A stretch of 64,000 bases of DNA, taken from the NCBI GenBank assembly GCA_018402305.1, contig JAGYJE010000005.1, forward strand, positions 124,001 to 188,000, in the 5' to 3' direction. Both the position numbers and the translations under genes were made by a program. The DNA comes from Puniceicoccaceae bacterium. Its GTDB lineage: Bacteria; Verrucomicrobiota; Verrucomicrobiia; Opitutales; Coraliomargaritaceae. This document shows positions 20,785 to 21,341 of this stretch, piece after piece. The notes beneath the pieces were generated by a model. The model made no database searches and had not been told where the DNA came from. It saw only the letters and a list, made by a program, of their open reading frames with translations. Positions within the stretch are counted from its first letter, which is position 1. Each line of letters opens with the position of its first letter.

Positions 20785-20826
20785 GAACATCGAACATCGA
20801 ACGTTGAACGTCCAACATCGAATAGG
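20785..20826. repeat. Left inverted heptamer array of the S23 unit
   Basis: One base, then five heptamers (AACATCG, AACATCG, AACGTTG, AACGTCC, AACATCG) and AATAGG. It begins 8 bp upstream of the alaS start codon, so it lies where the alaS ribosome site would be. Confidence 0.88.
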
Positions 20827-20838
20827 CTTATGCTTGGA

Positions 20839-21252
20839 TTAGGATTTAAGAGCTTTTTTTCGGGCGGTTTGGATGCTGGCGAAGAATATTCGAATGAGCT
20901 GATCCGTCTCATCAAGGATATCGTCGAAAAGCTCCGAATTGTCGATAAGAGGCACACGTTTAGTCAGTTTCAGCCAGCGGTGCGTTTCGCGAAGTTCTTT
21001 GAGGGATAGCTTCAGTTTATGAATAAAGTCATTGGGCGATTCAGCTGCTTGAGCCTCTCCGTGGTTAGCAAGCGGCGACGTGGACGAGCGTAGGAGTTGT
21101 TTCGCCACATGCATCCCGGCTTGGCTGGGCCGCATCTTTTCGGTTAAGCGAATAGTGCTCGCAGAATACTCAAGCAGTCGCTCCTCTAGATCATACATCG
21201 AGCCGGCTTCCTCGACAATCCACGCATCCTGTTCGCTTTGTTTGTAATCCAT
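20839..21252 (-). CDS. S23/four-helix-bundle protein (23S rRNA IVS-type, Avd-related fold)
   Basis: 137 residues, all helical. LEYSASTIRLTEKM, then QAGMHVAKQLLRSSTSPLAN and ESPNDFIHKLKLSLKELRET give the typical order of S23/IVS proteins, in which the phrase QLLRSSTS(P/I) plus N-F-x-x-K is conserved. Start at ATG 21252, or at the Met of MYDLEER (21198). S23 proteins form pentameric barrels; relatives include the Avd subunit of diversity-generating retroelements, but no reverse transcriptase is in the window. The start codon comes directly out of a heptamer array. Function unknown. Confidence 0.8.
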   Translation of the reverse strand: MDYKQSEQDAWIVEEAGSMYDLEERLLEYSASTIRLTEKMRPSQAGMHVAKQLLRSSTSPLANHGEAQAAESPNDFIHKLKLSLKELRETHRWLKLTKRVPLIDNSELFDDILDETDQLIRIFFASIQTARKKALKS

Positions 21253-21253
21253 T

Positions 21254-21281
21254 CGATGTTTAAAGTTGGATGTTCAATGTC
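21254..21281. repeat. Degenerate heptamers before the S23 start codon
   Basis: Plus-strand units CGATGTT, TAAAGTT, GGATGTT, CAATGTC lie directly upstream of the S23 gene. They share the GTT-ending family of the two border arrays and point the same way as the right border. Confidence 0.65.
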
Positions 21282-21299
21282 GATTTTTCTTCGTCTCTC

Positions 21300-21341
21300 C
21301 CTATTCGACGTTCAATGTTGGACGTTGGATGTTCGATGTTC
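21300..21341. repeat. Right inverted heptamer array of the S23 unit
   Basis: CCTATT, then CGACGTT, CAATGTT, GGACGTT, GGATGTT, CGATGTT and a final C. The last base is the first base of the leuB stop codon complement, so the array begins exactly where leuB ends. It is inverted relative to 20785-20826. Confidence 0.88.

Follow-up and report, generated by a model that had tools for sequence, protein, structure and literature searches.

An S23 four-helix-bundle gene enclosed by inverted heptamer arrays between alaS and leuB in a Puniceicoccaceae bacterium: a candidate compact insertion element

A stretch of 64,000 nucleotides from a Puniceicoccaceae bacterium (the window) contains, between alaS and leuB, one small gene enclosed by two short tandem arrays in inverted orientation, which raises the question of whether this arrangement is peculiar to one spacer or represents a genetic element of its own. 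The gene (20839–21252, minus strand) encodes a 137-residue protein which, in profile searches, matched both PF05635 (50.6 bits, cut-off 33.8, E 2.6e-13) and TIGR02436, four helix bundle protein (81.7 bits, cut-off 24, E 4.1e-23), in each case over the curated cut-off, and it was assigned to the S23 family. The alaS-side border (20785–20826) is an array of GTTSRAY units on the minus strand, and the leuB-side border (21300–21341) an array of the same units on the plus strand, inverted with respect to the former. A weaker inner stretch of GTTSRAY units with approximate ends (21254–21285, plus strand), seen in the sequence and by TRF (L003 1866–1955), lies between the right border and the S23 start. 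The motif GGGGAAC (20782–20788, strand unassigned) lies at the outer margin of the array next to alaS, and some short elements devoid of S23 have it at their outer margin too. The downstream neighbour is alaS (18042–20777, minus strand), and the upstream neighbour is leuB (21341–22441, minus strand), whose stop codon abuts the array.

In the first-pass annotation of the window, made from the sequence alone, the borders had been described as 42 bp long, inverted, sharing a terminal AATAGG and matching at 35 of 42 positions. Re-scoring confirmed this description, and 20785–20826 with 21300–21341 was the best inverted 42-mer pair. The mismatches had been ascribed to the variable heptamer positions, and all seven indeed fall on the S, R and Y of GTTSRAY; with seven differences between the two arrays, exact pairing is not obviously selected. 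Local inverted alignment of the flanks gave a score of 28 against a control-window median of 10, so the border pairing is not due to chance. The extent of the unit was also as annotated, with all three genes on the minus strand and the unit spanning the interval from the alaS start (20777) to the leuB stop codon (21341–21343), and thus filling the spacer. No recombinase or nuclease gene was recognised within the unit.

For other S23 genes, the 260 bp upstream were aligned to the reverse complement of the 260 bp downstream, with a cut score of 14 and a stricter one of 18. It had been foreseen that the link would be fortuitous if other S23 genes lacked flanking arrays, and the opposite was found: at the cut score of 14, inverted flanks were present at 95 of the 106 loci of the order set, as compared with 17/380 windows from other parts of these loci, and the direct orientation reached the cut in 17/106. 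This set was built from 29 and 80 loci among the listed matches plus four loci of the genome itself (113, seven of them dropped for short flanks), matches near contig ends and lower-ranked ones lying outside it. Among named genomes, represented by the best 80 of at least 588 candidates with four dropped, 68/76 S23 loci and 12/380 windows reached the cut, and 58/76 and 0/380 the stricter one; the set covers many groups, including a Methanophagales archaeon and an Uhrbacteria contig. All ten plasmid loci scored, from 34 records (cyanobacteria, Azospirillum, Gemmatirosa), gave 15 or more, and arrays are also visible in two unscored records (L368, L369). Viral contigs (40 loci, two dropped, with some near-duplicates) showed inverted flanks at 34/38 S23 loci as compared with 12/152 control windows; one query for S23 in phage records gave no match.

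A gene-centred control, with open reading frames of 100–200 amino acids taken from the same loci, gave 18/165, as compared with 163/182 for S23. When the S23 proteins were clustered at 50% identity and each cluster was judged by its first member, 38 of 44 clusters were flanked. Y1 transposase genes, scored in 19 of 20 stretches, had inverted array flanks in no case (0/19). The inverted-flank test was failed by 19 of the 182 S23 loci.

The 152 arrays above the lag threshold, which drops very short arrays from these counts, had mostly a period of seven (115), followed by eight (22) and six (9). The period-7 arrays contained a median of 5.1 copies (n = 115) and a common Y-R-G core, and the commonest unit of the named set was TCAGTTC. 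The idea of a single unit sequence holds at the locus of the window, whereas other S23 lineages use other units. The 1.41 Mb surrounding S23 loci yielded 73 inverted array pairs by strict criteria: 48 enclose the queried S23 gene, nine are shorter than 200 bp, and within the remaining 16 no gene recurring between loci was apparent by eye in this sample, which is centred on S23.

The relation between unit and protein was examined across 109 loci: arrays upstream of S23 genes were matched with those downstream of S23 genes at other loci, and synteny was judged from protein matches in the available flanks. Similar arrays were shared by 93 of 2486 pairs with distant S23 proteins (relative bits below 0.15) and no detected synteny. 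Among closer pairs, also with no detected synteny, the corresponding figures were 24/61 (0.55–0.65) and 18/25 (at least 0.65). Two S23 genes of one genome (G007) with 95% identity, located on different contigs (L075, L101), have similar arrays. The array unit belongs to the S23 protein lineage and goes with it to unrelated sites. Some syntenic pairs have dissimilar arrays, so units also change.

The genome that contains the window (3.1 Mb) has 40 occurrences of three consecutive GTTSRAY units and none of the reversed pattern. PF05635 gave five matches at four places in this genome, and at three of these the gene is flanked on either side by inverted arrays whose unit differs from place to place: GTTSRAY at leuB-alaS, CGGGATN on contig C56 and a 15-mer on C67. 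The fourth place (L005, on C12), with two S23 domains in one frame, sits in a large direct array of ~110 bp units containing inverted motifs, and is among the loci that fail the inverted-flank test (score 12).

For 12 of the 21 family genomes, the sequence between leuB and alaS was inspected. Four spacers contain an S23 unit (that of the window, L124, L125 and L127), five a unit with a GxxExxY-like gene (L122, L123, L126, L128 and L129), and three neither. Sites between alaS and leuB from which the S23 unit is missing, which the first-pass annotation had proposed to look for, do therefore exist, the three spacers with neither gene type measuring 31 bp (L132), 104 bp (L130) and 105 bp (L131). 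GxxExxY identity was assigned by profile for L122 and L129 and by sequence likeness for the other three, and the flanking repeats, read by eye, have a CGCAGAT core in three units and other sequences in L123 and L129. The GxxExxY genes of the order (30 loci, one dropped) had inverted flanks in 28/29 cases as compared with 6/145 windows. The GxxExxY proteins (TIGR04256, PF13366 PDDEXK_3) thus resemble S23 in the inverted short repeats around the gene and in the use of the leuB-alaS slot, but they belong to a nuclease-fold family, and their repeat units, by eye, are of ~9–10 nt in about three copies. One query of the viral contigs confirmed no GxxExxY gene. The name GxxExxY appears in two open-access papers, and a passage on it in one of them (PMC8934634) is not about arrays.

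The S23 orthologs at this site (G109, G113, G049) gave dN/dS ratios of 0.08 (L124–L125) and 0.14 (L125–L127), the copy of the window being in neither pair. In the four other ortholog pairs, including all three with that copy, dS was saturated and pN was 0.20–0.22. These coding sequences indicate that the S23 orthologs at leuB-alaS are under purifying selection.

Filled and empty sites were also compared on named cyanobacterial plasmids of ~90–93% identity, for which some of the matching records were opened. At one junction (X-Y) of nine Nostoc plasmids the S23 unit is present in three, a 3-nt gap in five and 199 nt of other sequence in one; at a second junction (Y-Z), one of nine contains an S23 unit with another array unit, and the other eight have gaps of −1 to 4 nt. 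Calothrix has an S23 unit behind an integrase gene, a position at which each of three opened relatives shows 3 nt, and Picosynechococcus PCC 7003 has one between cas10 and cmr3, as against 12 nt in PCC 7002. Insertion is evident in Aulosira laxa, where the former 3′ end and stop codon of the interrupted upstream gene are found on the far side of the S23 unit; two opened relatives show 2 nt at this place. The cas6-cas4 slot is occupied by an S23 unit in Anabaena sp. 90 and measures 23 nt in Nostoc sp. UHCC 0302. Filled and empty orthologous sites, as expected of a mobile element, were thus found both at leuB-alaS in relatives and on plasmids. No constant target-site duplication could be made out at the sites compared; the candidate repeats were TTCTA at one Nostoc site, also readable as an array unit, and only ATG at another. 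In a Dolichospermum plasmid with a 98.8% identical backbone (L358), the cas6-cas4 slot contains a different stretch of 245 bp with GTTGGGTT-type inverted ends.

Inverted GTTSRAY pairs were also found without an S23 gene, their match starts lying ~60–145 bp apart. All 15 pairs counted have the (−,+) order seen around S23; 13 were among the family-genome matches listed and two in the genome of the window, a palindromic stretch on C19 being omitted. One pair in the (+,−) order, ~560 bp apart, was seen in G090. In two short forms (L343, L351) GGGAAC and GTTCCC mark both outer margins, and in some others one. In five (L338, L340, L347, L351, L355) the inner left border contains GAATG, which resembles the S23 starts of L124 (TTGAATGAATTAC) and of the locus in the window (CGAATGGATTAC), although the likeness is short. 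Judged from these shared ends, the S23-free hairpins may be internally deleted copies of the larger unit.

The arrays do not depend strictly on an S23 gene of their own kind. Ten family genomes without an S23 match contained four GTTSRAY matches in total, as compared with 247 in the 11 genomes with one, 10 of these 11 having an S23 match over the cut-off and genome size being a confounder. However, three of the 11 have no GTTSRAY match, and genome G033, with 25 GTTSRAY matches, has such flanks at none of the three S23 loci opened, as is also the case for G104, with 18 matches and three of nine S23 matches opened. Of six S23 loci opened in G090 (67 GTTSRAY matches), only L173 has at least two units per strand. 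To judge from these three genomes, arrays can persist without a cognate S23 gene.

Enclosure of S23 genes by arrays, co-variation of unit and protein, and presence or absence at orthologous sites give the unit the appearance of a compact mobile element with ends specific to the protein lineage, and we consider it likely that 20782–21341 is an insertion element with S23 as its sole gene and the inverted arrays as its ends. Each end would consist of a short degenerate unit repeated about five times, and the S23 protein encoded by the element would bind these arrays, perhaps with one array per protein ring, as the related solved structures 2gsc and 2rld contain five chains each. The title of a work on Xcc0516 in the reference list of PMC10053308 likewise describes an assembly of five four-helix bundles. 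By binding both arrays, S23 would bridge the ends of the element, either at the DNA level or in an RNA stem. Since hairpins with similar ends but no S23 gene are dispersed through the same genomes, copying or movement may act on the ends themselves. S23 proteins have no known catalytic site, so strand cutting would most likely be borrowed from the host or from other mobile-element machinery. Insertion between co-directional genes, together with a transcript stem that can be trimmed, would keep such an element nearly harmless.

An explanation at the level of RNA, which overlaps with the insertion element and which we hold to be rather improbable as the main account, follows the plan of the intervening sequences (IVS) of 23S rRNA: the arrays would pair in a leuB-S23-alaS transcript, RNase III would cut the stem, S23 would bind or protect it, and spread would occur via RNA or rare recombination. 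The stem had been suggested in the first-pass annotation, and the predicted fold of the transcript strand does pair the arrays (minimum free energy −167.4, as compared with −141.0 for shuffled sequences, sd 6.3, z −4.18); this computed fold is its support, although any inverted DNA repeat would fold in this manner. By crude calls of open reading frames, S23 is co-directional with both neighbours at 44/65 named and 54/83 order loci, as compared with 136/295 control frames, yet about one in three S23 genes for which both neighbours could be assigned departs from this pattern. Coxiella offers a precedent, with an S23 open reading frame between 28-bp inverted repeats within 23S rRNA, which form a stem excised by RNase III, in an intervening sequence that the passages on it in PMC4990558 call selfish, and whose protein, according to the authors of that paper, is apparently not made in vivo. 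Some GTTSRAY arrays lack a partner under the exact pattern, which does not favour a stem, though at least one of them (L355, on C1) has a degenerate partner.

It is no more probable that S23 has no part in the process and that the arrays are substrates of recombination or single-strand transposition, mobilised in trans by another enzyme, such as a reverse transcriptase or a Y1 HUH transposase, or by arrays recombining with each other. The lack of a known catalytic site in S23 and the arrays without S23 are compatible with this, and the genome of the window has 35 Y1_Tnp matches, as compared with none in the 10 sampled family genomes without an S23 match, as well as one RVT_1 match. However, G104 has its 18 GTTSRAY matches and no Y1_Tnp match, no inverted array flanks were found at the Y1 genes scored, and the tendency of the unit to follow the S23 lineage is left unexplained. 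The Y1 transposase was rejected as owner of the arrays, since its CGGGAT arrays occur inside the 3′ coding part of one subfamily, with no inverted flanks (0/19). In that subfamily a CGGGAT-type array was seen in the 3′ part of the frame at L376, L377, L379–L382 and L384, all Y1_Tnp loci of the genome of the window.

That the arrays are operator or other regulatory sites, with S23 as an ordinary host regulator and no mobile element involved, is very improbable. A regulatory role was proposed by MacGregor in 2015 for TAACTGA arrays upstream of start codons (PMC4679880), but here an array is also present downstream of the gene, and inverted, and the empty sites and the unit common to related S23 genes at unrelated loci weigh strongly against it. 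That S23 genes simply land in repeat-rich spacers by chance or at hot spots has a negligible probability: arrays do occur away from S23 genes too, but the control windows (17/380), the gene-centred control (18/165), the Y1 loci (0/19) and the co-variation of unit and protein refute this at the numbers obtained.

Among known systems, the IVS of 23S rRNA, as in Coxiella and Leptospira, is alike in having an S23-family open reading frame and terminal inverted repeats capable of forming a stem, and in being sporadic and selfish or possibly mobile in the account of PMC4990558. In the unit of the window the S23 frame is likewise enclosed by terminal inverted repeats that, from their 35/42 match and predicted fold, could pair as a stem, but this unit is situated outside rRNA, between the protein genes alaS and leuB, and has dispersed short forms. 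Its ends are tandem arrays of a lineage-specific unit. The 23S rRNA IVS is probably a special case of such elements.

RAYT proteins are Y1 HUH transposases flanked by their own REP/REPIN inverted short repeats. That system resembles the present one in the gene inside its own inverted short repeats and in the dispersed short inverted pairs without the gene, but the gene here is S23 and not a Y1 HUH transposase, and the Y1 genes scored have no such flanks. PF05635 is said in PMC10053308 to resemble, in sequence and structure, Avd of diversity-generating retroelements. There is no reverse transcriptase in the unit; a retroelement of this kind was rejected, the only RVT_1 match of the genome being at C76:111018 and the window on C45.

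Cyanobacterial STRR sequences are heptamer tandem repeats. TAACTGA heptamer arrays of Beggiatoaceae and cyanobacteria also have a heptamer unit, which reads TCAGTTA in reverse and is close to TCAGTTC; no transfer mechanism was evident for them in PMC4679880, in whose main text, as available, the terms S23 and four helix are absent. Satellites derived from heptamers are noted in a passage of PMC6749651. A link of S23 to arrays was not found in searches of open-access literature, and work in subscription journals or preprints may exist.

S23 proteins were familiar from 23S rRNA IVS but had no clear function, and catalogues of heptamer arrays offered no mechanism; the present results connect the two and provide each S23 protein with a candidate target sequence. 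A broader proposal, for which we would claim somewhat less than an even chance, is that S23 units are minimal mobile elements spanning phyla and without a recombinase of their own, in which a pentameric S23 would read the inverted arrays with one unit per subunit, so that unit and protein would co-evolve; S23 and GxxExxY units together would be the source of much bacterial repeat DNA of the heptamer type, with the 23S rRNA IVS as one special case that landed in rRNA.

Further repeats and genes were noted in the window. Within the alaS frame, a GTTSRAY array for which no partner was seen lies at 19065–19096 (minus strand), and a CGGGAT-type array at 19860–19910 (plus strand), where relatives have a variable loop of about equal length (in the window, IPHSESRIPHPESPIP). 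From its loop position and similar length, the latter array has apparently taken the place of coding sequence while keeping the reading frame. Two gene matches were observed at 26888–27163 and 17236–17484, namely a toxin-like gene of the YafQ family (PF15738, E 7.9e-18) and a ribbon-helix-helix match under the cut-off. A 9-mer tandem array, CCACTGGAC, is present in 6.6 copies at 56695–56753, and at 7200–7287 there is a CGGGATA array of 12 copies, of the unit family found around the S23 gene on C56.
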